The notes beneath the pieces are model-generated. The model did no database searches. It saw only the letters and a program-made list of their open reading frames with translations, and was not told the DNA's origin. A program made the position numbers and the translations under genes. From contig JBFLZB010000019.1 in NCBI GenBank assembly GCA_040756475.1, forward strand, positions 8,054-41,508: a stretch of 33,455 bases of DNA. The letters are read 5' to 3'. Shown here piece by piece: positions 3,313 through 33,437 of the stretch. The DNA is from Thermodesulfobacteriota bacterium. GTDB lineage: Bacteria > Desulfobacterota > Deferrisomatia > Deferrisomatales > JACRMM01. The first letter of the stretch is position 1. Every line of letters starts with the position of its first letter.

Positions 3313-6006
3313 TCATGGCCGCCCGCCTCCCATCGCCATCTCGATGCACGAAAAGTCCCTGTCCGTCGGCATCGCGAAGAGTCCCGCCCCACCGCTGCGG
3401 CCCGCCCACACCGCCCCAATGGCCCGCTTCTCCTCCGAGTCCACCGTGTCGAACCGGTCCTTGCCCTTGTACTCCACCACCAGGACACGGCCGTCGGCGA
3501 GCTGGCACACGAAGTCCGGGTAGAACCAGTCCGTCGAGGTCTGCAAGCGAAACGAGGTGGCCTTCCGGGCCAGGTTGCGTACCCAGAACCGCACGGCGGG
3601 AAGCGCGTCCAGGTACTGGGCGCACTCGAACTCCTCCGCCACCTGCCCGTCCTGCCGCCGTTCGCGGAGCTCTCCGGGTTTCGGCCCGAAGTAGTGCTTC
3701 TGGAAACGGAAACCCCCTTCGTACAGCCAGCTCGGCTCGTAGCTCATGGTCTTGAAGTTGATCGCCTTGTCGCTGCTGACTGCCAAGGCGGAGTCGGGCA
3801 GGAGGTACAGCTGAAAAGCGGCCTTCCGCTCCGACTCCCGGTGCTGCTGGATGCGGCCCTCGATCTCGGTTCGCAGCCGGAAACGATCCAGCGCCAGTAC
3901 GTTCACGTCCGCTATCCCGTACTTGGCCATGAGACCTCGGAGCACCTTGCGCAAGAACTCGGCCGATTCGCCCACCGGGATGTCCCGATGGTCGATCTTG
4001 CGGTCCAGCCAGGCCACCAGACCCTCCAGGGTCCAGTCGCTCCCGGCGATGCCCAGGCTCAGCACCTGCTGGTGCAGGGTGGCCACGAAGTCGCCCGCCT
4101 CGGGCTCGTGCACCTCCTCGGTCTTCACCTCGCCCTTGGTCCCGACGTCGAGGTACCCGGACTTCCCCGCCGGGCGGCGGCTCGGGTCGTACCCGGCGCC
4201 CAGCGTCGCGTCCTTGGTGCTCAGCTTCCAGGGGTGCTCGATGAGAAACGTGCTCTCGAACTCGAAGAGCTTCCCGCTCTCGCGCACGCACAGTCTGGGC
4301 ACGCGAAAGTCGAGGCCGAGCTCGTAGGGCGACGGAACCCGGGTGTCGCCGGTGCCGCCGAAGGCCCGTTCCGCGGCGATGACCCCCGCGACCGCCTCGC
4401 GCACCTTGGCCCTGGCCTCGGGGGTGGTCACCACACTGGCCAGACGCTCGGTCTCGTCCTCGTCGAGGGGGACGACCACCGTGATCTCGCCCCGGTCCAC
4501 ATCGACGCGGACCTTCCCGCCCATCCGCGCCGCCTCCGCCCGGGCCTTGGCCCCGTCCAGTTCCCCGGCCGCCAAGCGGACGGTCTTTGGCTGAACGCCC
4601 AGGGGGAGCACCCCCTGCTGCACGGGGATGATGATCCGCTCGGCCTCCGCAGCGGTGAAGCCGTTGCTCTCCAGCGCATCTCGCAGCTCCGCCAGCACCG
4701 CCGGCAGGGAATCCGAAGGCGAGAATGCGTAGGAGCAGTTCAGGTCCGGATGCCGCTTCGCCCGGGCCTTGGGCAGCCGCAGGATGCGTCCCACGATCTG
4801 CTCGATGGCGGTAGCGGAGCGGGTCTCCTTCAGGCTGCACAGCACGTACGCGAAGGGGCAGTCCCACCCTTCCCGCAGTTTCTCCACGGTGAGGATGACC
4901 CGCACCGGGCAGCCAGGCGCCTCGATGTCTTCGATCTTCTTGAGCTCGTCGAGCCTGCCCGTGGAGATCTTGACCTGGTCCTTGGGCACCCCGAACTCGC
5001 CGGCCAGCCGCTCGCGCAGGGGTTCGCACGCATCCACCCGTTCGGCCTGGATCAGCAGGAGCGGCCGCAGGTACTCGCCGGTCTGCTGCGCCTCGGCCGC
5101 GGCAAGCCGCTCCAGGTCGTTGCGCAGGGCGATCGCCTCGGCCAGCAACTGGTCCTTCTGGCTCGGGTGGCGGGTGACCACGCGCAAGGGCAGCTTGACC
5201 ATGTCCGCTGCCTTCAGTTCGGCGGCCGAGACGTGGTGGAGTACGTTGGACGGATGCTTCGCCCTGGCGGGCGTGGCCGTAAACTCGACGATGCACGAGG
5301 GCATCACGTTGCCCAGGGTCGCAAACGACAGGTCCGTGCGGGCGTTGTGGGCCTCGTCCACGATCACGATGGGCCGCCGCAGCCGCAGCATGTTCACCAG
5401 GGACGGCTTCGGTTCGCCGTTGGCCCCCGGCAGCATGTCCGCCACCCGATCGGGCGGGAGATGCAGCAGATGGTCCGAGAACGCCCCGTTCTGGTCGTAC
5501 ACCTTGCGACCCGTGGTGTCCTCCACCCGGAAGGCCTGGATCGTGGACACGATCACCACCGTCTGCCCCTCGACGGCCCCCCGCGACAGCCGCAGCGCTT
5601 CCTCGATCGTCACCACCTCCACCGCGCCGCAGGATAGCTCCAGGGCCCGGCGATACGGGTGGCGCGGGTCGCGCAGGGCATCGGCGGTCTGGTCGAGGAT
5701 GGTGTTGCTGGGCACGAGCCACAGCACCACCGCACGCTCTCCCCGCAGCAGCTCTTCCATCGCGAGCCCCGCGGCGTAGCAGGCGAGGAGCGTCTTGCCG
5801 CCGCCGGTGGGCACGCGCAGGCACACATAGGGCATCTCCGACGCCAGGCCCTCGGCGACCACCGGAACATAGGGCATCGGCCCCCGGCCGTTGGCGAGTT
5901 GGACCGCCTGGAACGCCCCCTCGGGCCGGCCGTCCCGGGAGCACTGGCGAAAGAATGCCCGTAACGAGTCAAGGACGCGGTGCTGGTAGTCCTTCAGCGT
6001 GATCAT
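3313..6006 (-). CDS. res: Type III restriction enzyme, Res (helicase-nuclease) subunit
   Basis: 897 residues. The N-terminal superfamily 2 helicase/translocase core has PTGGGKT (66-72, Walker A), DEAH (217-220), TATP (243-246) and QIVGRILR (403-410, motif VI). The C-terminus has a PD-(D/E)xK nuclease motif: D831 in YPDF, then E845 and K847 in VVEYKG. This is the standard order of type III Res subunits, which translocate after Mod recognises unmethylated sites and cleave downstream. The ATG (6006) overlaps the rhuM TGA as ATGA, so translation is probably coupled. All catalytic motifs are intact and no frameshift is seen. It could only cleave together with the Mod protein encoded two genes upstream. 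Confidence 0.93.
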   Translation of the reverse strand: MITLKDYQHRVLDSLRAFFRQCSRDGRPEGAFQAVQLANGRGPMPYVPVVAEGLASEMPYVCLRVPTGGGKTLLACYAAGLAMEELLRGERAVVLWLVPSNTILDQTADALRDPRHPYRRALELSCGAVEVVTIEEALRLSRGAVEGQTVVIVSTIQAFRVEDTTGRKVYDQNGAFSDHLLHLPPDRVADMLPGANGEPKPSLVNMLRLRRPIVIVDEAHNARTDLSFATLGNVMPSCIVEFTATPARAKHPSNVLHHVSAAELKAADMVKLPLRVVTRHPSQKDQLLAEAIALRNDLERLAAAEAQQTGEYLRPLLLIQAERVDACEPLRERLAGEFGVPKDQVKISTGRLDELKKIEDIEAPGCPVRVILTVEKLREGWDCPFAYVLCSLKETRSATAIEQIVGRILRLPKARAKRHPDLNCSYAFSPSDSLPAVLAELRDALESNGFTAAEAERIIIPVQQGVLPLGVQPKTVRLAAGELDGAKARAEAARMGGKVRVDVDRGEITVVVPLDEDETERLASVVTTPEARAKVREAVAGVIAAERAFGGTGDTRVPSPYELGLDFRVPRLCVRESGKLFEFESTFLIEHPWKLSTKDATLGAGYDPSRRPAGKSGYLDVGTKGEVKTEEVHEPEAGDFVATLHQQVLSLGIAGSDWTLEGLVAWLDRKIDHRDIPVGESAEFLRKVLRGLMAKYGIADVNVLALDRFRLRTEIEGRIQQHRESERKAAFQLYLLPDSALAVSSDKAINFKTMSYEPSWLYEGGFRFQKHYFGPKPGELRERRQDGQVAEEFECAQYLDALPAVRFWVRNLARKATSFRLQTSTDWFYPDFVCQLADGRVLVVEYKGKDRFDTVDSEEKRAIGAVWAGRSGGAGLFAMPTDRDFSCIEMAMGGGRP

Positions 6007-7070
6007 GGGTTCGGCTTCCCCTTCTTCGACTCCAGGCGCTTGACCTCTTCCACGACCCGATCGAAGTCGCTCGAGGGCTCGGTGGCCTCGACGAGGCGGC
6101 GTTTCTCCTCGTACCGTGCGAACTCGGCCTCGGCGCGCTCGTGGGCGAGCTTCTGGGAGATGCGCCCCGCGTCGGCCAGCACCTTTCGGTCGCTCAGATC
6201 GAGGAAGTCGTCGAGCTTCCGGCGCCAGTCGGCCATGGTCATGGGGTTGCGGCTGCGCGCCTGGAACTCGGCGAACTCCAGGTAGCCGCTGACGAGCAGG
6301 TTGAGGCTCGAAAGCTCCTCCTCGCCCAGGTAGTTCTTGGCCACGGTCACGTCGGCCTTGCGGATGCGGCCCGCCGGGGCGTTTTTCCAGGTCGTCAGCC
6401 CCATGTGAGGCTTGTCGGCGTCGGCCCGCGCGTGGATCAGCTCCGGCGCGGTGTGGCCGTGGATGGCCCAGTGCATCTTGTTCTGGACTGTCGCGAAGAA
6501 CTCCTGGGTCAGGGGGTGGTTCGCGTCGTAGTCGATGCTGGTAGCGTAGATGTCGGTGATCTTCTGGTAGAACCGCCGCTCCGAGGCCCGGATGGCCCGG
6601 ATTCGCTCCAGAAGCTCATCGAAGTAGTCCTCACCGAGGTTGCGGCCTTGCTTCAGGCGCTCGTCGTCGAGCGCGAAGCCCTTGACCACATACTCGCGCA
6701 GGAGCCGGGTGGCCCACTGGCGGAACTGGGTGCCCCGGTGGGAACGGACCCTATAGCCCACAGCAAGGATCACGTCGAGGTTGTAGTGTTCCACGAGCCG
6801 TTCCACGTCCCGAGCGCCTTCGCGCTGAACGATTCGGAATTTCCGAATGGTTGCCGCCGGGTCGAGCTCCCGCTCCTCGTAGATGCCGGCGATGTGCTCG
6901 TTGATGGTCGGCACGGACTTCTGGTACAGCTCCGCCAAGAGCCGCTGAGACATCCAGACCGTCTCGTCGACGAGGCGAACCTGCACCCGAGTCTCACCGT
7001 CCTCGGCCTGGTAGAAGAGGAACTCCGAGCCGGAGGCCGGCGGCGGCGCCTCGCCTTTCTTCCGCCTCAC
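6003..7070 (-). CDS. rhuM: RhuM family protein inside the type III RM operon
   Basis: 355 residues from the GTG at 7070, which overlaps the mod stop (GTGA) and is preceded by GAGGTGAAGG. The alternative ATG at 7319 would lie inside mod and encodes arginine-rich shadow sequence. RhuM family hallmarks are present in order: EFLFYQAEDGET, VWMSQRLLAELY (a helix-turn-helix-like region), HYNLDVILAVGYRV, HRGTQFRQWA, YFDELLERIRAIRASERRFYQK, FFATVQNKMHWAI, DKPHMGLT and AKNYL. The family is named after a Salmonella pathogenicity-island gene. Its biochemical role is not established, but members often sit in restriction-modification and defence loci. Its place between mod and res, overlapping both, suggests a role tied to this system. 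Confidence 0.88.
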   Translation of the reverse strand: MRRKKGEAPPPASGSEFLFYQAEDGETRVQVRLVDETVWMSQRLLAELYQKSVPTINEHIAGIYEERELDPAATIRKFRIVQREGARDVERLVEHYNLDVILAVGYRVRSHRGTQFRQWATRLLREYVVKGFALDDERLKQGRNLGEDYFDELLERIRAIRASERRFYQKITDIYATSIDYDANHPLTQEFFATVQNKMHWAIHGHTAPELIHARADADKPHMGLTTWKNAPAGRIRKADVTVAKNYLGEEELSSLNLLVSGYLEFAEFQARSRNPMTMADWRRKLDDFLDLSDRKVLADAGRISQKLAHERAEAEFARYEEKRRLVEATEPSSDFDRVVEEVKRLESKKGKPNP

Positions 7071-8845
7071 GACACCTTCACCTCGTACGGCGTCTGCCGC
7101 ACCGTGATCCCCTCGGCCTGCAGCCGGTCGCGACCCAGCAGGCACCCGGCGCAGTAGATGACCTTGGACCCGTCGAAAGGCGGCAGGCTCGCCAGCACCG
7201 ACCGGGTCAGCACGTTGCCGCCGTCGTCGGACCGGTCGCCCAGGATGCCGTTGTAGAGGAGGTAGATGCCGACGCCCCGGCACGCGCCGAGAAAAGGCGA
7301 GTTGGCCACAAGAGAACACAAAGGGCTCAAAGAAGAGCCAGGTTCTCCTTTGTGTTCTCTGCGTTCCTTCGTGGCCATCGCAGGCAGGGGTTCTCCGGTC
7401 TCGGTGAAGTACACGTGCCGAGCCAGGTCGGCGAAGCTCACCGTCTCGCGAATCTTCCCCGCCTCGTCGAAGAGCGGCTCTCCGAGCTCGCAGTAGCGAA
7501 AGCCACCGCCGAGTCCCGGGACGGCCTCCCCCTTGGCGTTCGTGTATCCCTGGGCCACGCGGCGGATGCGCTCGGCGGAGATGTCGCGTGCTATTTGGCG
7601 CTTCATCTCAACCAATATGAAGCGGCGTTTCTGTCCGTCGCTACGATTCAGCTTGAGGGCGGCGTGACCAGTTGTTCCAGACCCTGCGAAGGAGTCCAAG
7701 ACCAAGTCATCGCCAGACGTAGTGAAACTAAGTATTTCCTCGATCAAGGAAGTGGGTTTTGGGAAATCAAACGGCCGCTTTTCCCCTGGAAAGACGTCCT
7801 TTATCTCATATGTGCCAATCCTCCCATCCAATTCAAACAAGCTAGACAACTTAGCCCTATAGTCTCGAACATAGACCTTCAATTCGACTATCTTGCCTTC
7901 GTCGCCACCAAACAGAATACGCTCCTCTGACAAGAGGCGTTCCATGGTCTCCGGCGGAAATCGATACCCCATTAGAGGCTGTGTGCATGGTTTTCGCGTC
8001 ACCGGATGGATAACGTCGTATCTGTAGCCCTCTTTTCCAGGGTTATGGACGCTCTGACTGCCTGTGTAGATGCCACCATCATCTATATACTTATATCTGT
8101 CGAACGGCCACATATAGGCCTTGTTCTCTCTGAACCATTTTGTGTACTCGCGCTGCCTTATCGTTTGGTCTTGGTAGCGCATGACAAATTCATCGCCAAC
8201 CCTGAGCAGCTTGTCCTTGGCAGCCAAGTCCTGCGACTTCCACTCAGAGGCAAGTTTGCGCTTGTCTCTGGCATAGGCCAGAATATATTCGTGCTCCAGC
8301 GCGATGTTAGTCGGATTGTTATCCGTCGCGTTATGCCAAATGATCGTGCCAACGCGGTTCTGAATCCCAAATATTTCGTCCAGGAGATGCCGAAGGTTTG
8401 CGTACTCGACTTCATCGATGCTAGCAAAGAGAACCCCGTCGTCACGAAGAAATCGACGGAGCAATGCAAGTCGCGGATACATCATGCAGAGCCATTTCTC
8501 ATGACGCGATAAGTCTTCCGCTTCGGTTCCCACGACGCGGTCCAGCCACTCACTAATTTCCGGACTGCTTACGTTGTCGCTGTAGATCCAGCCCGACCGC
8601 TTCCCTTCTTCGTTCCTTTCGTCGACGCCGGTGTTGTACGGCGGGTCAATGTAGATGCACTTCACCTGGCCGGCGTAGTAGGGCAGCAGCGCCTTGAGCG
8701 CAACCAGGTTGTCGCCCTGGACGATCAGGTTGCCGCTTCCCGGCTCGCCGCAGGCAAGCTCGGGCACGTCCTTGAGCAGGTGGAAGGGGACCTCCAGGTG
8801 GTGGTTGACCACCGCTTCCTTGCCGATCCAGTTCAACGTGGGCAT
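7067..8845 (-). CDS. mod: Type III DNA methyltransferase, Mod subunit (with in-frame insert)
   Basis: 592 residues, start ATG 8845 with AAGGAG upstream. Beta-class adenine-N6 methyltransferase: DPPYNTG (67-73, catalytic motif IV) precedes the AdoMet-binding FAGSGTT (386-392, motif I), with the target-recognition region between them. It modifies the recognition site and directs Res. Two oddities are visible. First, DNA from about 7605 to 8640 (roughly residues 69-414) is much AT-richer than both ends of the gene. Second, residues about 490-514 are encoded by a palindromic element (7304-7376) that interrupts the normal join between ETGEPLP and NSPFLG but keeps the frame open. First gene of the mod-rhuM-res operon. 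Confidence 0.93.
   Translation of the reverse strand: MPTLNWIGKEAVVNHHLEVPFHLLKDVPELACGEPGSGNLIVQGDNLVALKALLPYYAGQVKCIYIDPPYNTGVDERNEEGKRSGWIYSDNVSSPEISEWLDRVVGTEAEDLSRHEKWLCMMYPRLALLRRFLRDDGVLFASIDEVEYANLRHLLDEIFGIQNRVGTIIWHNATDNNPTNIALEHEYILAYARDKRKLASEWKSQDLAAKDKLLRVGDEFVMRYQDQTIRQREYTKWFRENKAYMWPFDRYKYIDDGGIYTGSQSVHNPGKEGYRYDVIHPVTRKPCTQPLMGYRFPPETMERLLSEERILFGGDEGKIVELKVYVRDYRAKLSSLFELDGRIGTYEIKDVFPGEKRPFDFPKPTSLIEEILSFTTSGDDLVLDSFAGSGTTGHAALKLNRSDGQKRRFILVEMKRQIARDISAERIRRVAQGYTNAKGEAVPGLGGGFRYCELGEPLFDEAGKIRETVSFADLARHVYFTETGEPLPAMATKERREHKGEPGSSLSPLCSLVANSPFLGACRGVGIYLLYNGILGDRSDDGGNVLTRSVLASLPPFDGSKVIYCAGCLLGRDRLQAEGITVRQTPYEVKVS
7304..7376. repeat. Palindromic element inserted in frame within mod
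   Basis: Inverted repeat with a perfect 14-bp stem (7311-7324 AGAGAACACAAAGG and 7347-7360) plus an outer 6-bp stem (GGCCAC at 7304-7309 with GTGGCC at 7371-7376). Base composition differs sharply from the adjacent mod sequence. In the mod frame it encodes about 24 codons with no stop. The form resembles small non-autonomous palindromic elements; no second copy was seen in this window. Confidence 0.75.
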
Positions 8846-9000
8846 CGGGGGGGTGTTTCTCCTTCGTCGTTCGTATGTCGGTGATCAGCTGAAGGCCGCT
8901 TCGACTCCAAGCAGGGTTCGAACGATCTCCTTGCAACGACGCGTTTACAGGTTGGCGGAAGGCCGCCAGCGCTGGAGCCAATCCGCCGTGCAGCGCATTG

Positions 9001-9483
9001 TTACCCGCCGCTCTTCCTCCCCACGTGGGCAGAAAGGATTTCCTTGACCGTCCAGGTCGCGTAGGCAAAACAACCATAGGCCACAAGCGCGACCGCGATA
9101 GCCGTTACGAAAGCGAAGGCATTAAGTGCTTGAGACAAGGGGAGACTGAGTGCCCAGATTGATATAACAACCAGCGTGCATGCCCCAGTAATAACAAGTG
9201 ATATCAAATACCTGTCCTTGACCATGTGGTAATCCGGCCATTTCTGCAAGATCGTGAAGTCAACACTCGAAGGGAAAAGAAGATCGCCCGCCGACCTCAC
9301 CATTACGACCAAGAGGGCTACAGGGACTAGGGCCAGGTACTTTATTGGCTCATTTTGGGTCAATCGAGCCCCAAGCCAAACAAAACAAGATGGCGCTAGA
9401 ATGTAGACACCGACCGAGCCAACGAGGACGAGGGCCTCAAGGGAGACGAGCGTGGCAACCAGGATGTCTTTGAGCCTGTTCAT
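9001..9483 (-). CDS. Small multi-pass membrane protein of unknown function
   Basis: 160 residues, not recognised. Four hydrophobic stretches are visible at approximately residues 8-30, 46-64, 91-115 and 119-142, so a four-helix membrane protein is likely. A short hydrophilic loop in the middle (SSVDFTILQKWPDYHMVKDR) and a basic C-terminal tail (VGRKSGG) frame them. Its ATG (9483) overlaps the stop of the upstream 300-residue gene as ATGA, so the two are almost certainly co-translated and functionally linked. DNA here is AT-richer than the chromosomal background, which fits horizontal acquisition. A membrane effector partnered with a cytosolic sensor is possible but is inference only. Confidence 0.75.
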   Translation of the reverse strand: MNRLKDILVATLVSLEALVLVGSVGVYILAPSCFVWLGARLTQNEPIKYLALVPVALLVVMVRSAGDLLFPSSVDFTILQKWPDYHMVKDRYLISLVITGACTLVVISIWALSLPLSQALNAFAFVTAIAVALVAYGCFAYATWTVKEILSAHVGRKSGG

Positions 9484-10382
9484 TCGTGCGACATCTTGCG
9501 CTCGACAGAGACTGCAGTGAAGTTCTTGCGTGCCTCCTGGTACAAGCCCTCCGGGTCCGGAACCTTATGGTAAATGAAACCCCTTTCGGTGTCAGACGTC
9601 CGGACGACGACTCTCGTCTCTCCTTCGGTTCCCACTATCTTCCCCTTGCCGTAGCCATCAGCTGCCATCAAGAGCGCTGCGTCAGTGATGTCGATGGGTG
9701 CTACCGGCTCATACGGGTGCTGTGCCGTTGCTGCCAGGATGCCCTGGACGTGTTCCAGCACGTCCGTCCTCAGATGGGAACCCTCCTCCGATTTTTCCTT
9801 TATGTCTAGCTCCCCAGCGTTTCGTTTTTGTATATACTCATTGAGGCGCCGCCACGCGCGACCGAATAATGGATTAGGTGGGTGGACCTTCGCAGAAATT
9901 TCCAGAAATACATCGATGGCCTTTAGGCGTGCCACAAACGTCCTGAGGTCTGAAATGGGCTCAATATCGCATCCAACGAAGAAGCGGTCATGCGTGGAGC
10001 AAATTATATGGCAAAACCTCTTAATGAATGCCTTTGTTTCAATTTGATTCCACACGTGCAAGAAAGCTATGCCTGAGAACTCAGGTATGTAGACGAACGG
10101 GCTTGTTGCGACCAAGAGATTAGGCTCCGGTCGTTGATCCTGAGCTCTGTGAGGCTCGTCAACTACTGTTACTGTGCCCTCCGGCAAGAACTTGCTCAAA
10201 TGTGCATAGGCATACCGGGTCGCGTTGCCCTCGCGCTCGACGACGGCGTCGGTGAAGGTCCAGGCGTATCGGGCGCCCTGGATCGTGGCAGGATGCTCGA
10301 TTGCAGCAACGATAAGTTCGTCGTTCAGCCGCCCGATCTTGTGTACTCTGCCGAGATGGTATCTTCCCTTTCCCTCTCGCAT
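9480..10382 (-). CDS. Unknown 300-residue soluble protein, partner of the membrane protein
   Basis: 300 residues, start ATG 10382 with GAGG about 6 nt upstream. I do not recognise the family. The protein has no signal peptide or membrane helices. An N-terminal half rich in beta-type sequence (for example RYAWTFTDAVVE, NLLVATSPFVYI) is followed by a mixed region with VHPPNPLFGRAWRRLNEYIQ and a charged helix (residues roughly 185-215). No nuclease, ATPase or protease motif is obvious. Base composition is low in GC compared with the genes beyond 11 kb. Adjacency to a complete type III RM operon on the same strand and the overlap with a membrane-protein gene make a two-component defence cassette plausible but unproven. 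Confidence 0.75.
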   Translation of the reverse strand: MREGKGRYHLGRVHKIGRLNDELIVAAIEHPATIQGARYAWTFTDAVVEREGNATRYAYAHLSKFLPEGTVTVVDEPHRAQDQRPEPNLLVATSPFVYIPEFSGIAFLHVWNQIETKAFIKRFCHIICSTHDRFFVGCDIEPISDLRTFVARLKAIDVFLEISAKVHPPNPLFGRAWRRLNEYIQKRNAGELDIKEKSEEGSHLRTDVLEHVQGILAATAQHPYEPVAPIDITDAALLMAADGYGKGKIVGTEGETRVVVRTSDTERGFIYHKVPDPEGLYQEARKNFTAVSVERKMSHE

Positions 10383-19336: not shown

Positions 19337-20473
19337 ATGGTTCTGCACGAGGAGCTTCGCCACCTGGCCCGACTTCCCCGCACCGGCGCCCCCTTCCTCA
19401 CCCTCTACCTCAACACGCGTTGGGACAGCGAGAAGCAGAGGGAGCGCGTGCGCATCTTCGTGAAGACGAAGCTCAAGGAGTGCCTGGCCGCAGCAGGCGA
19501 TCTGGGGGGGGATGCGCGGCGAAGCCTCGAGGAAGACGCGGAAAAGGTGGAGCACTACGTGCGGGGTCTCGTAAACCGCGCGTGGGACGAGGCCTTCGAC
19601 GGGGTCGCCGTCTTCGCGTGCTCGGGACTCGGGGAGTACCGGGTGGTGCGAAGCCATCTCCCCTTTCCGGAGTCCTTCACCTGCTCGGACCGCCCCGTGC
19701 TGCGGCCCGTGGCCCAGTCGGTGCGGGAGGGGGAGCCCGCCCTCCTGGCCATGGTCAACGGCGATGCCGGACGCCTCCTGGCGTTCGAGATGGGGTCCGT
19801 GACCCGGGAGTTCGCGTTCGCCGACGAGGAGTTTCCGGGCCGCCACGAGCAGGGCGGGTGGAGCCAGGCCCGCTACCAGCGGCACGTGGACGAGCACCTC
19901 AACCGAAACCTCCGGCGCCTGTCGGATCAGTTGGTGCGCTGGGCCGGCGAGCGGCAAGGCGCCCGTATCGTGCTCTCGGGGCCCGATCCCCTCCTTGCGG
20001 CCTTCGAGCCTCTCTTGCCCAAGCGCCTGGAAGGGGCGGTGTGCGCACGGCTGCGCCTGGATCCGAACTCCGCGCCCGACGTCATTTGCGACGAGGTCCG
20101 GGCGGCCCTGCGGGCGGGGCGGGATCGAGAGGATGCCGAGGCGGTCGACAACCTGCTCAACAAGGTCCGGGGCGCAGGCCGGGGCGCGGTGGGGCCGGAA
20201 GCGGTGGCCGAGGCCGTGGCGGCGGGCCGGGTGCACGTGCTCTACCTGGCCCAGTCCTTCCGGGAAGCGGGATGGAAGTGCTTTGGCTGCGGCGCCCTGG
20301 GCGTCAAGGCCCCCCCGGAGTGCCCCCAGTGCGGGAAGCCCGTGGAAGGCGCGGAGTTGGGGGAGGAGTTGGTGCGGGGGACGCTGGCCGCGGACGGGAG
20401 GGTCGTGGCGGTGAATGGCCACGGGGGGCTCCAGAGCGAAGGGGGCGTCGGAGCGGCGCTCCGGTATGCGTGA
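19337..20473 (+). CDS. Bacterial eRF1-like (baeRF) protein with zinc ribbon
   Basis: 378 residues, ATG preceded by GAGGAGG at a 5-nt spacing. The layout matches bacterial homologues of archaeo-eukaryotic release factor eRF1: an N-terminal domain opening with FLTLYLNTRWD, a middle domain with GGWSQARYQR (173-182) in the place of the eRF1 GGQ loop, and an L7Ae-like domain (about 205-300). A C-terminal zinc ribbon has C315, C318, C329 and C332. Related Vms1/VLRF1-type proteins release peptides from stalled ribosomes through a conserved glutamine; here Q177 is the candidate. Function in bacteria is largely untested. It is a single gene, convergent with the PHP gene 15 nt away. Confidence 0.8.
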   Translation: MVLHEELRHLARLPRTGAPFLTLYLNTRWDSEKQRERVRIFVKTKLKECLAAAGDLGGDARRSLEEDAEKVEHYVRGLVNRAWDEAFDGVAVFACSGLGEYRVVRSHLPFPESFTCSDRPVLRPVAQSVREGEPALLAMVNGDAGRLLAFEMGSVTREFAFADEEFPGRHEQGGWSQARYQRHVDEHLNRNLRRLSDQLVRWAGERQGARIVLSGPDPLLAAFEPLLPKRLEGAVCARLRLDPNSAPDVICDEVRAALRAGRDREDAEAVDNLLNKVRGAGRGAVGPEAVAEAVAAGRVHVLYLAQSFREAGWKCFGCGALGVKAPPECPQCGKPVEGAELGEELVRGTLAADGRVVAVNGHGGLQSEGGVGAALRYA

Positions 20474-25921: not shown

Positions 25922-27052
25922 TCAAAACAGGTCGAGTTGCCCGCGGGGTTTGCCCTTGCGCCCGCGTCCCGGCGCACGCGAGGGGCCGGACTCCGGGGGT
26001 TGGACGGCGGGTTCCCGGGGCGTTTCCGGCTCGGGTTCGGGGGTTGCCGGGGGCGGGGGCTCAGGGGCTGGAACTGGGGGGTGGCCGATCACCTGCGCCG
26101 GCGCTTCCCCGCCCCGGAGCTCGGTTTCCAGGGCCGAGAGCAGGGCGTCCAGGGAGGGGTCCTGCGCCCGGCGCTCCTCCACCCGCCGGGCCGCCATGTG
26201 CACGGTGGTGTAATCCACGCCGAAGCGCTCTCCGATCTCCCGCAGGGTGCAACCCGTTACCCTGCGCGCCAGGTAGATGGCCGCCTTGCGCGCGAGCACC
26301 CGCTGGAACTTCCCGGAGGTGAGCTGGGCCGTGGGCAGCCCCGTGTATTCGGCCACCGCCTCCAGCACCTGTTCGAGGGAGGGGCCTTCGGGCCGGTGCG
26401 CGAAGCCGGGCACTTCCCGCACGTCCTGCCCCTCCAGGGCCCCCAAGACCCGCTGCCGGAGTTCCTCGCCCCCCAGCACGAGGCCCCGCCACGCCTGTTT
26501 CCAGGGAGGGAGAGGCGGGCAGACCCGCGCCGCCTCCACGAGATGGACGTAGGCTTCCCTGCCCCCGCTCAGCCCCAGTACCCGCTGCGTCGTCAGCCCG
26601 GGCAGGGGGAGGTCCCCCGGCGCGTAGGCACGGGCGCTGGAGCCCGGATACGTCCAGGGATCGGGCGCCAGGCGCTTGCGCACGGGGTTGAGGTGCACGT
26701 GGACCGAGAGGGGGACGAGCCACTCCTCCCCCAGGAGGAGCGCGCGATATCGGGGCTGCAGGAGCGGCCCCCGGCGCCCCCGCCGGGCATTCACCCCGGC
26801 GGTGTACCCGGCGTTGAGGCGGTGGAGCGCCCGGGAGAGGTTGGGCCGGGGCGTCTCCAGGAGCAGGTGGTAGTGGTTGGGAAGGAGGCAGAACGCGTGG
26901 CACCGGACCCCGAAGGCGGCCGCCAGCTCGGGCAGGCGGGAGAGGAAGTCCTCCACCTCCGCCGCGTCGCGAAACAGGCGCTGGCGAGGCAGGCTGCGCG
27001 CGGTCGCCAGGTACAGCGCGCCGGAGAACTCCACCCGCAGGGGTCTGGCCAT
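25922..27052 (-). CDS. REP-associated tyrosine transposase with DnaA-like C-terminal domain
   Basis: 376 residues. The N-terminal Y1/HUH domain (1-130) has the LLPNHYHLLLETP block with HxH at H60/H62, candidate catalytic Y83 in NAGYTAGVN, and GRRGPLLQPRYRALL, as in RAYT transposases that act on short palindromes. Residues about 225-295 look like the DnaA C-terminal helix-turn-helix: ARKAAIYLARRVTG, LREIGERFGVDYTTVHMAARRVEE. A Pro/Glu-rich basic tail follows. The usual YHV near the N-terminus is YLA (residues 14-16), a difference from most RAYTs. The ribosome site is weak. It follows slipin by 70 nt on the same strand. Complete and possibly active. Confidence 0.88.
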   Translation of the reverse strand: MARPLRVEFSGALYLATARSLPRQRLFRDAAEVEDFLSRLPELAAAFGVRCHAFCLLPNHYHLLLETPRPNLSRALHRLNAGYTAGVNARRGRRGPLLQPRYRALLLGEEWLVPLSVHVHLNPVRKRLAPDPWTYPGSSARAYAPGDLPLPGLTTQRVLGLSGGREAYVHLVEAARVCPPLPPWKQAWRGLVLGGEELRQRVLGALEGQDVREVPGFAHRPEGPSLEQVLEAVAEYTGLPTAQLTSGKFQRVLARKAAIYLARRVTGCTLREIGERFGVDYTTVHMAARRVEERRAQDPSLDALLSALETELRGGEAPAQVIGHPPVPAPEPPPPATPEPEPETPREPAVQPPESGPSRAPGRGRKGKPRGQLDLF

Positions 27053-27999: not shown

Positions 28000-29748
28000 T
28001 CACCTCTGGGCCCGGGGGAAGGCGGCTTCCCAGAGACCCTCGAAGAAGTTGCGGGCATTGGTCCCCAGGGAGCGGGTGCGGTATCCCCCCTCCTGGACCA
28101 CCAGGGTCGGCAGCCCCAGGGAGCCGATCATCCGGCCGTTGGCCGCGAAGTCCCTGGCGGTGAACTCCCAGGTGCCGGTGGGGTCCCCCTTGGCCGGGTC
28201 CAGGCCCAGGGCCACCACCAGGAAGCGGGGTCCGAACCTGCGAATCCGCTTGAGGACGTCGGACAGGGCCTCCCGGTATTCCTCGGGAGACAGGTGCTCG
28301 GCCAGGGGGACGTTGAGGTTGTACCCCTCCCCCGGGCCGGCGCCCTTCTCGTCGGCAAAACCGCTGAAGTAAGGATAGGCGAAGCGGGGGTGGCCGTGGA
28401 GCGACGCGGTGAAGACGTCGCTTCGCTCATAGAAGATCATCTGGGTTCCGTTGCCGTGGTGGTAGTCCACGTCGAGCACCGCCACCTTGCCCAGGCGGCT
28501 CAAGTAGTGGGCCGCCACGGCGCTCGAGTTGAAATAGCAGAACCCTCCGAAGACCCGGCGTTCCGCGTGGTGGCCGGGCGGCCGCACCAGGGCGTAGGCC
28601 AGGCGGTGGCCCCGCAGGATCCCCTCGGCCGCCGTGAGGGCGCAGTCCACGGCCCGCTTGGCGGCCAGGTAGGCGTTGCGGTTCAAGGGCGTGAAGGTGT
28701 CGATGCAGTAGTAGCCCGCCCGAATCGGCAACTCCTTGGGCGGCCGCGCCGCGTTTCGCAGGGGAAAGACGTAGGGATACACGGACTGGCCGGGTTCCAC
28801 GTGGGCGCAGACCCGGCGAAGGTACTCCACGAAGTCGGCGTCGTGGACGGCACGGATGTGCCGCTCCGAGAAGTGCATGGGCTCCCGCAGGTCGAACAGG
28901 CCCGTCTTCTCGATTTCCCGGAGGATGGAACGAATCCGCACCGGAGCCTCCACGTAGCCCCGTTCCCGCACGTGGTGGATCTCGTGGCGGTCGTTGACGA
29001 CCAGGGCGATGCGCTGCTCCAGGGAGGGGACCCGGCGCACCGGGATGACCGGCTCCTTCTTCACGTAGCGGGGCTCCCGGAGGCCCACCGGATCGTCGCG
29101 GAACGACTCGAGGATCATCTGGTTGTACTCGGGGGGGCACACGCCCTTGTACTGCCGCTCCAGGATCGCCCGCACCACCGCCACGGCGCGGCTTCGGGAG
29201 AGGGGCGCCCCCCTGCCCAGGCCGTCGAAGACGAGGTAGGGGGGGCACTCGTCGCCGGGGCGAAGGGGGGTCTCGTAGCGCGTGTTGGCAATGGGGCGAG
29301 CTCCGTAGCGCTCGTAAAAGGCCAGCCGCCGCGCGTTTTGGCGCAGCACCTCCGGGTCCCGGCACAGGGCCGGGTCGTCCGGCAGGCACTCGAAGAAGAC
29401 CCCCACGCATCCCAGTTGGAGCGCCTCTTCCCGGACGCGCTCGTACAGCGCGCTCCCCACCCCCCCGCCGGTGCGCAGCCGGGCGGCGCTGATGAACTCC
29501 AGGTAGAGGAACTGGAGGTCGGGGGCGTGGAGCACCAGGGCGAAGCCCTTGACCTTGCGGCCGTCCTCCGCCACGAAGAGGATCGCCCGGAAACGGTGCT
29601 TCAGGGGATCCCGGAGCTGGTCGGGGATCCTCTCGATGTCCTCCTTGGACAGGAGGGGGAACTGGGACCGGAGGATCTCCTGGACCTGGCCCAGGGCGTC
29701 CTGGTCCGAGGGTATGGAGCAGTCGTAGATGCGGCGGATGGCGAACAC
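28000..29748 (-). CDS. GNAT acetyltransferase-histone deacetylase-like fusion protein
   Basis: 582 residues from GTG 29748, chosen because GAGGAGA lies 6-8 nt upstream; GTG 29766 is an alternative six codons longer. The N-terminal third (about 5-160) is a GNAT fold with the acetyl-CoA loop [15 protein letters not shown] and the closing block [13 protein letters not shown]. Residues about 250-580 form a class II deacetylase/acetylpolyamine amidohydrolase: catalytic His pair H393-H394 in [21 protein letters not shown], zinc ligands D428 and H430 in [11 protein letters not shown]517 in [12 protein letters not shown], and catalytic Y556 in EGGY. One protein thus carries both acetyl-adding and acetyl-removing catalytic signatures. 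Substrate could be polyamine or protein lysine. No partner gene is obvious. Confidence 0.9.
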
Positions 29749-29965
29749 GGGGTCTCTCCTCGCCACGGGCTCGAGAAGCAGCAGGGTGCCCCCGCGGCCG
29801 GAGGCAGCCCCTGGGGAGCCTCATTGTACACGCGATCGCCTGCGCCGCAGCACCCGGCATGGCCGGGCCAAAATACTTCGAAGACGACTCATTCACTTGT
29901 GGCGAGCCTCGGCTTCACGCCCACGGATTATCCATAATTACCAATAAACAGACCCAAAATAAAAG

Positions 29966-29978
29966 ACTTGACGCAAGT
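29966..29978. promoter_or_regulatory. Candidate operator upstream of marR
   Basis: ACTTG-ACG-CAAGT inverted repeat (5-bp arms) in the 297-nt AT-rich divergent gap (29749-30045) between the GNAT-HDAC and marR genes. A TTGACT at 29994-29999 could be a -35 element for marR with a poor -10 (TAAGGT, 30018-30023). MarR proteins commonly bind such palindromes in their own promoters; binding here is inference. Nothing else is recognised in the gap. Confidence 0.35.
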
Positions 29979-30045: not shown

Positions 30046-30588
30046 ATGAGCTCACCCGAAGACCGTGTAGAAGAAGAAGTTCTGCTCGCGCTGCGGCGCA
30101 TCGCCCGCGCCGCGAGCCTCCACTCCCGCCACATCCAGCACGCCTACGGGCTCACCTCGCCCCAGCTCTTCGTGCTGCGGGAGCTCGCTCGGCGGGGGCG
30201 GGCCACCGGCGCGGAGCTGGCCCGGGCGGCCTCCCTGAGTCACGCCACCGTGACGGGGATCCTCGACCGCCTCGAGCGGCGGGGGCTCATCGGGCGGGTC
30301 CGCTCCGAGGAGGACCGACGGCGGGTGCTGGTCCAGGTGACCGGGGCCGGCAGCGACCTCCTGACCTCCGCCCCGCCCCCCCTGCAAGCCCGCTTCCTGG
30401 CCGGATTTCGGATGCTCCCCGATTGGGAGCAGTCGTTCCTGCTCGGGGCGCTCCAACGGGTGGCGTCGCTCATGGGGAGTGCCGGAGAGCCCGACGACGG
30501 CGAGGAGGCGGAGCCGTCCCAGGCGGCTTCCGGGGTGGGGGGTGAGGACCTGGAAGGGGCGGCGCCCGACCCCCGGCGCGCCGCGTGA
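30046..30588 (+). CDS. MarR-family transcriptional regulator
   Basis: 180 residues from ATG 30046, with GGAGGAG at good spacing; a TTG 12 codons upstream is less likely. The winged helix-turn-helix is clear: LTSPQLFVLRELARRG, GAELARAASLSHATVTGILDRLERRGLI, then the wing RSEEDRRRVLVQVT (about residues 37-105). The C-terminal 35 residues are acidic and low-complexity. MarR dimers usually repress adjacent genes until a small ligand binds. Downstream, 34 nt away on the same strand, begins the amidotransferase/amidase gene set, its most likely target. Confidence 0.92.
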   Translation: MSSPEDRVEEEVLLALRRIARAASLHSRHIQHAYGLTSPQLFVLRELARRGRATGAELARAASLSHATVTGILDRLERRGLIGRVRSEEDRRRVLVQVTGAGSDLLTSAPPPLQARFLAGFRMLPDWEQSFLLGALQRVASLMGSAGEPDDGEEAEPSQAASGVGGEDLEGAAPDPRRAA

Positions 30589-30622
30589 ACCACAACCCGA
30601 AACCGAGAGGAGAAACGACGAT

Positions 30623-32248
30623 ATGTGCACCATTTGCGGGCATGTCGCCCGAAACGGCCCGATTGCCTCGGCAGACGTCTACGACATGCTCCGAAAGATG
30701 GAGCACCGGGGTCCCGACACCAACGGCGTGTGCCTCGACGGCGACGTGCTCCGGGTGGAAGACCTGGAGAAACTCCGGGCGCCCCTGCTGCGCTCGAGCC
30801 GGATCGCGCTCGGCCACTCGCGGCTGCGGATCGTGGGCCGGGAGGCGACCACCCAGCCCTTCACCTCCTGTGACGGCTCTCTCGTCCTCATCCACAACGG
30901 CGAGATCTACAACTACGAGAAGCTCAAGAGCCTGCTTCGGCACCAGCACCGGTGGCAAACCACCAGCGACAGTGAGGTGCTGGTGCACCTGCTCGAGGAG
31001 ACCTACCGGGGAAATCTGCTGGACGCGGTGAAGAAGGTCGTGGGGCTCCTGGACGGGATGTACGCCCTGGCGGTGACCGACGGGGAGAGCGTCGTGGCAG
31101 CACGGGACCCCATCGGCAAGAAACCCCTCTACTTCATCGAGAACGGCCCCGTCACCTACTTCGCCTCGGAGCGCAAGGCCCTCTGGAACGGTCGGGACGA
31201 GCCCCGGCGGCTCGACCCCGGCGACCTCCTGGTGATGGACGGCGACGGCACCCGGGTGGCGGAGGGGTATCACCTCCAACTGCCCCCCATCGACGTAGTG
31301 GACTTCGGGGAGGCCGTGGCCCTCTACAAGGACGTGCTCCTCAAGGCCGTAAAGAAGCGCCTGGTGGGGCTCCAGGAGTCGGTGCTCGGGGTGATCTTCT
31401 CCGGCGGCATCGACTCGGTGCTCGTCGCCAAGCTCCTCCAGCAGGAGGGCAAGAACGTCATCTGCTACTGCACGGGCACCGAAGACTCGGGCGACATCGC
31501 CGCCGCGCGGGCCGTGGCCGAGGACCTGGGCCTGGAGCTCAAGACGACCATCATCGACGAGCCTTCCGTGGAGGCCCTCCTTCCCGAGGTGATCCGCAAC
31601 GTGGAGGAGAGCGGGCTCTTGCAGGTGGAGGTGGCGATCCCCATGTATCTCGCGGCCAGGCTGGCCGCCGAGGACGGCATCCGGGTCATGTACACCGGCC
31701 AGGCGGCGGACGAGCTCTGGGCCGGCTACCCCTGGTACTCGGACGTCCTGGAAGAGGACGGCTACCTGCGGCTCCACGAGAAGCTCTGGGAGGATCTCAA
31801 CTACCTCTACACCGACACCCTGGAGCGGGAGGACAAGCTCACCATGGCCCACTCCATCGAGCTGCGGGCCCCCTACCTGGACCGGGACGTGATCCACGCG
31901 GCCATGCGGGTCTCCCCCCGGTTGAAGATCCAGGGAGTGGAAGACCGGCTCCGCAAGCGGGTGCACCGGCAGGCGGCCGTGGAGCTCGGGGTGCCGGCCT
32001 ATCTCGCCTTCCGGATCAAGGACCCGGCCCAGTCGGGCTCGGGGATCCACGGCATCGTGGAGCGCATTGCCGCCCGCTGCGTGACCCGCTGCGATCCCCG
32101 CCTGGCCGGCGAGAACCTGAGGCGGGACAAGGGGAGTCTCTACCGCTACGGGGACGCCGCCTACGGGGAGGAGATCACCCGCGCCTTCCTCCAGCAGCTC
32201 GAGGCCCGCATTCGCGAGCAGTACATCCCGGCCTTCCTGGCGGCGTGA
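30623..32248 (+). CDS. Asparagine synthetase-like glutamine amidotransferase
   Basis: 541 residues beginning MCTICGH, so C2 is the Ntn nucleophile of a class II glutaminase. The glutaminase domain (2-210) has LGHSRLRIVG, HNGEIYNYE (91-99) and SDSEV. The synthetase domain (about 230-520) has the ATP PP-loop SGGIDS (260-265), TGQAADELWAGY (358-369), and DKLTMAHSIELRAPYLD. All catalytic motifs of the AsnB superfamily are present, so it should transfer ammonia from glutamine to an adenylated carboxylate. The family includes true asparagine synthetases and enzymes modifying natural products or cell-wall components, so aspartate is not certain as substrate. GAGAGGAGA precedes the ATG. Its stop overlaps the nitrilase start (TGATG). 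Confidence 0.9.
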   Translation: MCTICGHVARNGPIASADVYDMLRKMEHRGPDTNGVCLDGDVLRVEDLEKLRAPLLRSSRIALGHSRLRIVGREATTQPFTSCDGSLVLIHNGEIYNYEKLKSLLRHQHRWQTTSDSEVLVHLLEETYRGNLLDAVKKVVGLLDGMYALAVTDGESVVAARDPIGKKPLYFIENGPVTYFASERKALWNGRDEPRRLDPGDLLVMDGDGTRVAEGYHLQLPPIDVVDFGEAVALYKDVLLKAVKKRLVGLQESVLGVIFSGGIDSVLVAKLLQQEGKNVICYCTGTEDSGDIAAARAVAEDLGLELKTTIIDEPSVEALLPEVIRNVEESGLLQVEVAIPMYLAARLAAEDGIRVMYTGQAADELWAGYPWYSDVLEEDGYLRLHEKLWEDLNYLYTDTLEREDKLTMAHSIELRAPYLDRDVIHAAMRVSPRLKIQGVEDRLRKRVHRQAAVELGVPAYLAFRIKDPAQSGSGIHGIVERIAARCVTRCDPRLAGENLRRDKGSLYRYGDAAYGEEITRAFLQQLEARIREQYIPAFLAA

Positions 32249-33120
32249 TGGGGCGCTACCTGGATATCCGCCTCCTCCAGATGGGGTACGAGGCCCGCGA
32301 CATCCGCCACCACGTGGAGAAGCTCAAGGGGCTCATCGCCGAGCACCGGCAGGCGGACCTCCTGGTGTTTCCCGAGCTGTGCCTGCACGGGCACCCCTCC
32401 CTGGAGAAGCCCGAGGGCTTCCTGTACCGGAAGATGCGCGTCGCCTATGGCCCCATCTCGACGGACCTGTACCGCTTCGTGCGAGACGTCGGGGCCCGGG
32501 TCGTGATCGGCGAGATGCAGCGCAAGGGCGACGAGCTCTTCAACGTGGCCACCTACCTGGACGACGAGCGGGTCCCCCAGCATTACGTGAAGACCCACGT
32601 GCACTGGACGGAGCGCTTCGTCCCCGGCCGCGCCCTGCGCATCTTCGAGACGGCCTTTGGAGCGCTGGGCGTCAACATCTGCTTCGACGCAGCGTTTCCC
32701 GAGGTGTGGCGGACGCTCGCGCTCCTGGGTGCCGAGGTGATCGTCAACCTCTCTGCCGTGCCGGCCTCGTTTCCCTCCCGGTACGTGCACCGGCGCATGA
32801 GCGCCGCTGCGCTGAACAACCAGGTGTTCGTGGTCTACGCCAACCGGCCCGGGCCGGTGTTCTCGGGGGAGAGCGCCGTCTTCGACCCCAGGGGCGAGAC
32901 GCTGGCGGGCCTGGGTCCGGACGAAGGGACGCTGCGGGTGCGTCTGGACCGGGAGCAGGTGGCCCGGTGGCGGGAGGAGGAGCCCCTCTGGCCCCACCGC
33001 CGGCCCCAGCTCTACCGTCCGGTGACCGCGTCCCACGGGCACGGCCGGCGCCCGGAGTTTCCCGCGGACGGGCAGGAGAGGGGGGACGGACCCCTCGCCG
33101 CGGCCGGAGGGGGGCTGTGA
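32248..33120 (+). CDS. Nitrilase-superfamily carbon-nitrogen hydrolase
   Basis: 290 residues from ATG 32248, overlapping the preceding stop by one base (TGATG); GTG 32245 is a possible alternative. The Glu-Lys-Cys triad is visible: E43 in VFPELCLHG, K115 in YVKTHVHW and C145 in GVNICFDAAFPE, with RMSAAALNNQVFVVYANR further on. Superfamily members hydrolyse amides or nitriles, or act as glutamine amidase domains. The final 35 residues are low-complexity and beyond the fold. Tight coupling to the amidotransferase suggests that they act on the same compound class, one forming and the other cleaving an amide, or both feeding ammonia; substrate unknown. Confidence 0.9.
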   Translation: MGRYLDIRLLQMGYEARDIRHHVEKLKGLIAEHRQADLLVFPELCLHGHPSLEKPEGFLYRKMRVAYGPISTDLYRFVRDVGARVVIGEMQRKGDELFNVATYLDDERVPQHYVKTHVHWTERFVPGRALRIFETAFGALGVNICFDAAFPEVWRTLALLGAEVIVNLSAVPASFPSRYVHRRMSAAALNNQVFVVYANRPGPVFSGESAVFDPRGETLAGLGPDEGTLRVRLDREQVARWREEEPLWPHRRPQLYRPVTASHGHGRRPEFPADGQERGDGPLAAAGGGL

Positions 33121-33437
33121 CGGGGCGGCGCCGATCCTCCTCGGGGAGCGGTGCGCCGGCCGAGCGGCTCAACCTGGCCTGCCACCGCTATCACAGACGG
33201 GAGGTAAATCCCCACGTCACCAATGCGCTGCTGCACCTGGGGCTGGCCCGCCGCGCTGCCCGGCGGCGCGACCGGGAGAGCGCCCGGCGAGAGTACGCGC
33301 GCAGTCTCACCTGCTGGAAGAAGGCCGACCTCCAGGACGGTGGGCGGTGGGATCGGGAGGTGCGCCTGGTGCAGCGCGAAAAGAGCGAGCTGCCGCCAGC
33401 CGGTTCTGGAACGGGAGGAAGTCGCCGCGGACCTTGA
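33117..33437 (+). CDS. Small hypothetical protein coupled to the nitrilase gene
   Basis: 106 residues from GTG 33117, overlapping the nitrilase TGA (GTGA). Not recognised. A basic Ser/Arg-rich start is followed by a helical, TPR-like stretch (residues about 30-70: HVTNALLHLGLARRAARRRDRESARREYARSLTCWKK is paraphrased here by its key pattern, alanine/arginine-rich helices). The stop-start overlap and open frame make it likely real, but high GC means a chance frame cannot be excluded. The remaining 18 nt of the window hold nothing. Confidence 0.5.
   Translation: MTGRRRSSSGSGAPAERLNLACHRYHRREVNPHVTNALLHLGLARRAARRRDRESARREYARSLTCWKKADLQDGGRWDREVRLVQREKSELPPAGSGTGGSRRGP

Follow-up and report, generated by a model that had tools for sequence, protein, structure and literature searches.

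A conserved AsnB-like amidotransferase and nitrilase-superfamily hydrolase gene pair behind an EctR/CosR-like regulator, with a possible role in amide solute metabolism

Organization of the Locus

We analyzed a stretch of 33,455 nucleotides (the window) from a Thermodesulfobacteriota bacterium (contig JBFLZB010000019.1 of assembly GCA_040756475.1, forward-strand positions 8,054–41,508), and we describe here a group of genes near its end that is predicted to encode a MarR-family regulator, an AsnB-like class II amidotransferase, and a CN_hydrolase of the nitrilase superfamily (Table 1). The window is the end of contig C19 in a 5.0 Mb genome of 369 contigs; the contig stops with the window, and sequence downstream of it is unreadable. 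A first-pass annotation, made from the DNA letters, had proposed these three gene identities, and matches to Pfam and NCBIfam models confirm them. The 34 nt spacing that it described between the MarR stop codon and the start of the AsnB-like gene is present in the sequence, as are the overlaps TGATG (32246–32250, between the AsnB-like and CN_hydrolase genes) and GTGA (33117–33120, between the CN_hydrolase gene and a fourth open frame).

The proposal that the fourth frame encodes a small protein belonging to the operon fared less well. The frame matched no Pfam, NCBIfam, or PADLOC family, and a search of 148 phylum genomes returned relatives in its own genome only (itself and one weak match at 36%). 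Its G+C content at the three codon positions is 0.75/0.63/0.79, compared with 0.70–0.74/0.40–0.45/0.92–0.93 in the neighboring enzyme genes, and it is not retained downstream of the AsnB-hydrolase pair in other loci. By these measures it is probably not a real gene, and the missing family and relatives together with the atypical composition led us to reject the small protein as a part of the system.

Table 1. Features of the MarR-AsnB-hydrolase locus, in window coordinates
Feature	Position	Strand	Basis or remark
MarR-family regulator, EctR/CosR-like	30046-30588	+	PF01047 4.7e-17; stronger plasmid relatives adjoin ectABC/BCCT/ProU genes
AsnB-like class II amidotransferase	30623-32248	+	GATase_7 + Asn_synthase; TIGR01536 317.7 bits (cut-off 267.1); subfamily with Gln334, Glu336, Gln360 in synthetase site
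CN_hydrolase (nitrilase superfamily), constant partner of AsnB-like enzyme	32248-33120	+	PF00795 1.7e-33; Glu43, Lys115, Glu122, Cys145
Open frame, 106 codons, probably not a gene	33117-33437	+	no family or relatives; G+C by codon position unlike that of the neighboring enzyme genes
Candidate CosR/EctR-type operator TTTGAGTGCTAA	30009-30020	+	25 nt 5' of MarR start; 9/10 CosR consensus positions
Palindrome ACTTG-ACG-CAAGT (ACTTGACGCAAGT)	29966-29978		probably not the operator

Conservation of the AsnB-Hydrolase Pair

We searched a phylum sample of 395 genomes for both enzymes, accepting AsnB matches of 1e-60 or better and hydrolase matches of 1e-40 or better. An AsnB match was found in 15 genomes and a hydrolase match in 14. 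Fourteen of the AsnB matches were better than 1e-240, and the genomes that contain them are precisely the 14 with a hydrolase match; the fifteenth AsnB match was distant (38% identity). In all 14 module genomes, the two genes are adjacent on one strand with the hydrolase downstream, and the gaps between the matches are 2–228 nt. The distribution is patchy: the module occurs in eight families, is present in genome G123 and missing from the congeneric G151, and is missing from G265, which belongs to the window's own family.

A scan of named genomes, from which 79 loci were retained out of 288 relatives (some of them truncated upstream), overlaps the phylum sample in at least seven genomes, and so the counts from the two collections are not independent. 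The hydrolase gene lies directly behind AsnB in 20 of the 79 loci. All 19 loci with an AsnB identity of at least 57%, which come from sulfate reducers, Nitrospirota, and Candidatus Scalindua, have the pair, and a Zixibacteria locus (L080) has it at 42% identity for AsnB and 33% for the hydrolase. MarR is first in line in L080 too, so that the triad of MarR, AsnB, and hydrolase recurs there in colinear form; it recurs in L014 with MarR divergent from AsnB, and in L003 and L011 a MarR gene lies ~4–5 kb away. In a Ca. Scalindua locus (L019), the AsnB-like frame (8001–9647) is broken by a stop in the assembly.

We conclude that the AsnB-hydrolase pair is a true conserved two-gene module. The first-pass annotation had suggested a dedicated amide-handling pair and had named conservation of the gene order as a check on it; with the order kept in 14/14 module genomes, the suggestion of such a pair is supported. 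Our searches of open-licence papers turned up no description of the pair or its product, and our claim of novelty is confined to them. One candidate source, PMC10040529, was set aside: its table places the AsnB-related cluster with clusters for lasso peptides, sulfotransferases, and glycosyltransferases, and the sections of that paper considered do not describe the pair. An anti-phage role was also rejected, as neither enzyme has a PADLOC match.

Altered Synthetase Site of the AsnB-like Enzyme

The AsnB-like enzyme exceeds the cut-off of TIGR01536 (Table 1), a model that also accepts other AsnB-like enzymes. We compared 80 family sequences with E. coli AsnB (L199) as the reference, using the numbering of the literature (in which Glu348 is residue 349 counted from Met1 of L199). 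All of the Ntn glutaminase residues (Cys2, Arg, Asn, Glu, and Asp) are present in the window enzyme, as are its catalytic lysine and SGGIDS loop, and the glutaminase residues, SGG(I/V)DS, and Lys449 are retained in nearly all of the 80 members. The synthetase site is altered throughout the family: Gln, Glu, and Gln replace Thr323, Arg325, and Glu348 in 80/80 members. In the window enzyme, Leu-Gln-x-Glu replaces the Thr322-Thr323-x-Arg325 segment, and Gln360 replaces the Glu of SGEGSDE. We take Thr322, Thr323, and Arg325 of E. coli AsnB to form the segment for β-aspartyl-AMP. In the human enzyme, the counterpart of the Glu348-to-Gln replacement is E364Q. An excerpt of PMC6748925 reports that human asparagine synthetase carrying E364A or E364Q is inactive with aspartate, ATP, and ammonium.

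Three AsnB-like members of pairs lack Cys2, which is Ser in L016:798-2417 and L017:792-2417 and Gly in L018:3844-5466; the adjoining hydrolases keep their catalytic residues. The predicted structure of the window enzyme has a mean pLDDT (predicted local distance difference test score) of 74.6, with pocket segments 328–334 and 361–372 below 50, and the model therefore says nothing about the substrate.

Across the relatives of the CN_hydrolase, the Lys and Cys of the catalytic set (Table 1) are invariant and the Glu is nearly so. The window hydrolase scores below every curated equivalog cut-off (73.4 bits with the NAD synthase model and 74.6 bits with amidase models), and its substrate class is thus not fixed by family score.

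Asparagine Supply in Genomes with the Module

Because the window's genome encodes GatB (592 bits) and has no asparaginyl-tRNA synthetase (AsnRS) over the cut-off, its asparaginyl-tRNA is most likely made by transamidation, and, judged by gene content, the organism most likely has no need of free asparagine for translation. AsnRS over the cut-off is absent from 11 of the 14 module genomes, the window's own included. Each of the three that have it (G184, G330, and G273) also encodes a second, canonical AsnB (L138, L139, and L150), in which the Arg and Glu of the E. coli enzyme are conserved. On the strength of GatB and the lack of an AsnRS over the cut-off, we rejected the idea that the window enzyme is the sole housekeeping asparagine synthetase serving translation. 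The first-pass annotation had held that a sole housekeeping synthetase in an unconserved gene order would speak against its proposal, and that is not the situation we found. On asparaginyl-tRNA, and on acetyl-β-lysine in Pelobacter, the portion of PMC3543383 considered provides background only.

The MarR Regulator and a Candidate Operator

The main clue to the role of the module is the likeness of its regulator to EctR and CosR, which the first-pass annotation overlooked. Excerpts of a review (PMC7876524) describe both EctR1 and CosR as repressors of ectoine genes, with betIBA, proVWX, and bccT3 as further targets of CosR. The window MarR matched 110 plasmid records, and we inspected the neighbors of 18 of these matches, a hand-chosen set. 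Osmolyte genes lie beside 11 of the 13 inspected matches of at least 79 bits (ectoine genes in 10, L164–L171, L194, and L195, and a BCCT gene in one, L162) and beside none of the five of 71 bits or less (P = 0.002 for this hand-chosen set). We class the window MarR as EctR/CosR-like, akin to the osmotic-stress regulators of that name, and such a regulator points to a compatible solute.

The candidate operator (Table 1) was recognized by its match to the consensus of V. parahaemolyticus CosR, given in the available part of PMC8070244 as TTTGA-NN-TCTAA. It is the one match with at most one mismatch in the whole window, where 0.25 are expected, and when 5000 Markov copies were made of the upstream region, 40 of them contained such a site. 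A perfect consensus site lies 5' of the MarR gene of L162. The palindrome that the first-pass annotation took for the likely operator does exist, but it is not special, because the window contains 69 perfect 5-3-5 palindromes, two of them in the MarR upstream region; we do not favor it, and the CosR-type site is the better candidate.

Neighbors of Related Genes

We also recorded the genes around related loci, some of them linked to osmotic adaptation. These markers were chosen after the neighbors had been seen, and the list is to be read as a lead and not as a test. Among the eight methane-archaeal loci (L020–L026 and L043), ectABC is next to AsnB in four (L020, L021, L025, and L043), with EctA, EctB, and EctC of L020 over their curated cut-offs, and MscS channels are present in five (L021, L022, L023, L025, and L026). 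The four ectABC loci are from Methanophagales/ANME-1 and related archaea, and in them ectABC has an AsnB of the Gln type and a regulator of the Lrp type as neighbors. A KamA-type aminomutase occurs in L024 and L025, and L005 has TreT. Behind the pair in L002, L005, L017, and L129 is a sugar-type ABC transporter, and SSS symporters are found in L018, L019, L027, and L050. A search for ectoine and MscS markers in the Nitrososphaera-type loci found none. The window's own genome contains two closely spaced genes for BCCT (betaine-type) transporters (G000:C97:749-5243).

Other Genes in the Window

Divergent from the MarR gene, on the reverse strand (28000–29766), is a gene for a fusion protein with a GNAT acetyltransferase and a histone-deacetylase-type domain (PF00583 and PF00850). 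Further upstream, also on the reverse strand, 25922–27052 encodes a protein that carries the C-terminal helix-turn-helix domain of DnaA (PF08299) behind an N-terminal part that has no Pfam match and looks, by eye, like a REP-type Y1 transposase. The product of 19337–20470 is a bacterial archaeo-eukaryotic release factor family 10 protein (PF18854). A type III restriction-modification locus occupies 3313–8845, with Res at 3313–6006 (PADLOC 6e-133), Mod at 7067–8845 (1e-164), and between them a RhuM-family gene at 6003–7319 (PF13310; PADLOC candidate PDC-S05).

Discussion

As the best explanation of these observations, we tentatively propose that the three genes form a module under osmotic control for the synthesis and recycling of an amide-type solute, comparable to the system for N-acetylglutaminylglutamine amide (NAGGN) but distinct from it. 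The sequences establish the gene identities, the pairing, the retention of catalytic residues, the changes at the aspartate site, and the type of regulator; osmotic control, the substrate, and the direction in which the hydrolase works are inferred. At low salt, MarR would occupy its own promoter and keep the operon silent, and high salt would allow the AsnB-like enzyme to be produced. It would hydrolyze glutamine and channel the ammonia to the synthetase site, where a non-aspartate carboxylate and ATP would form an acyl-adenylate and then the amide. This uncharged or zwitterionic amino-acid derivative would be a compatible solute or a step toward one, and the CN_hydrolase would cleave a C-N bond of the same compound, either in turnover as the salt drops or in the removal of wrong products. 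In a more specific version, which seems to us rather unlikely, an enzyme with the signature GQ-(A/G)-x-DE would amidate a non-aspartate carboxylate, its nitrilase-type partner would take off the amide or carbamoyl group, and a switch of the EctR/CosR type would control both; this would apply to sulfate reducers, Nitrospirota, anammox bacteria, and Zixibacteria. Among possible products, carbamoylglutamine amide is listed as a solute, with no genes given for it in the sections of PMC7824335 considered; Ectothiorhodospira, the source of the carbamoyl compound, is not among the 79 retained loci, which is mildly against such a product. β-Glutamine in Methanohalophilus is, according to part of a literature source, a product of glutamine synthetase.

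Several observations weigh against an osmotic amide module. MarR is adjacent in just 2 of the 20 other pair loci (four of which have <1 kb of upstream sequence), and no CosR-type site with at most one mismatch was found upstream of the other pair loci tested. L161 and L163, two of the three top-scoring MarR matches, showed no osmolyte gene, and the tree rows nearest to the window MarR are L162 and L161, with no firmly supported branch joining it to EctR/CosR. The window MarR also lacks the C-terminal AxxIxxAPVL stretch of EctR/CosR, which the MarRs of L014 and L003 have. The enrichment of BCCT genes in module genomes is not significant (3/14 versus 24/381, P = 0.06). Finally, AsnRS over the cut-off is present in all three of the thaumarchaeal genomes tested, and their sole AsnB over the TIGR01536 cut-off is of the Gln type; a more remote family branch may thus well make asparagine.

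These thaumarchaeal genomes lend weight to the chief rival, in which the AsnB-like protein would be a true, though divergent, asparagine synthetase and the hydrolase would take asparagine or the corresponding keto acid as its substrate in the manner of an ω-amidase, the two forming a switch for asparagine or nitrogen storage that could still be osmotic if asparagine itself were the solute. The TIGR01536 score and the intact glutaminase and PP-loop residues are also consistent with asparagine synthesis. However, the three residues tied to aspartate activation are replaced in every family member examined, human E364Q is inactive in the excerpt cited above (PMC6748925), a canonical AsnB exists alongside the module enzyme in all three AsnRS-containing module genomes of the phylum sample, and the other 11 manage with no AsnRS over the cut-off; we consider this rival somewhat unlikely. 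The scarcity of adjacent MarR genes and the mixed neighbors of the pair (sugar-type ABC transporters, SSS symporters, and unrelated genes) would fit a different proposal, that the amide is a non-osmotic one (a cofactor, polyamine, or envelope precursor), that MarR senses the substrate of the pathway, and that its resemblance to EctR/CosR is mere family likeness. We regard this as improbable in view of the grading of osmolyte-gene linkage with MarR score in the hand-chosen set, the CosR-type site before the MarR gene, and the ectABC and MscS genes near the archaeal relatives.

It is highly improbable, in our estimate, that the hydrolase serves to supply ammonia to the synthetase, like the CN_hydrolase domain of glutamine-dependent NAD synthetase, instead of acting in turnover. 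The near-equal scores of the hydrolase with the NAD synthase and amidase models would allow this, and the three AsnB-like enzymes without Cys2 adjoin hydrolases that keep Glu, Lys, and Cys, but 17 of the 20 pair AsnBs keep the glutaminase nucleophile, which would make a second source redundant, and free ammonia could serve the three exceptions.

Genes annotated as asparagine synthase are assumed to make asparagine, and here a whole subfamily has an altered aspartate site. The subfamily spans sulfate-reducing and related bacteria, methane archaea, and ammonia-oxidizing archaea, and in bacteria it is coupled to the hydrolase as a two-gene module. If the proposed role in osmolyte metabolism is correct, the module would represent a route by which uncultured sulfate reducers and their relatives protect themselves against salt, and it would provide candidate genes for amide osmolytes that have been observed by chemistry.

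Comparison with Known Systems

The first-pass annotation could match the locus to no described system. This is right only in part: the enzymes here are different, but the layout of MarR, AsnB-type amidotransferase, and hydrolase is known from the NAGGN genes of Pseudomonas (MarR PA3458, AsnO-type amidotransferase PA3459, Ngg PA3460, and peptidase PA3461), which PA3458 represses and for which an osmotic role has been shown, according to the available part of PMC8070244. The window amidotransferase scores far below the TIGR03104 cut-off (166.3 versus 570.1 bits), Ngg (TIGR03103) is found in 0/14 module genomes at E 1e-60 (8/395 in the sample), and the operon partner is a CN_hydrolase and not a peptidase (no search for the peptidase was made elsewhere in the genome). 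The low score and the lack of Ngg rule out the NAGGN pathway for the module. Beside the Ngg genes of the phylum (L200–L203), no MarR homolog was found in the short flanks.

EctR1 and CosR, MarR-type repressors of ectABC, betIBA, and BCCT genes, are the nearest annotated relatives of the window MarR, and a similar operator-like site stands before its own gene; it differs from them in preceding amidotransferase and hydrolase genes instead of ectoine or betaine genes and in lacking their C-terminal stretch. The hydrolase shares the CN_hydrolase family and the Glu-Lys-Cys set with the amidases of the nitrilase superfamily (AguB, archaeal nitrilase, and the glutaminase domain of NAD synthase) but stays under every curated equivalog cut-off. 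The AsnB-like enzyme, in turn, has the two-domain architecture, glutaminase residues, SGGIDS loop, and catalytic Lys of AsnB (TIGR01536), whereas the aspartate-site positions Thr323, Arg325, and Glu348 are Gln, Glu, and Gln in all 80 family members examined.

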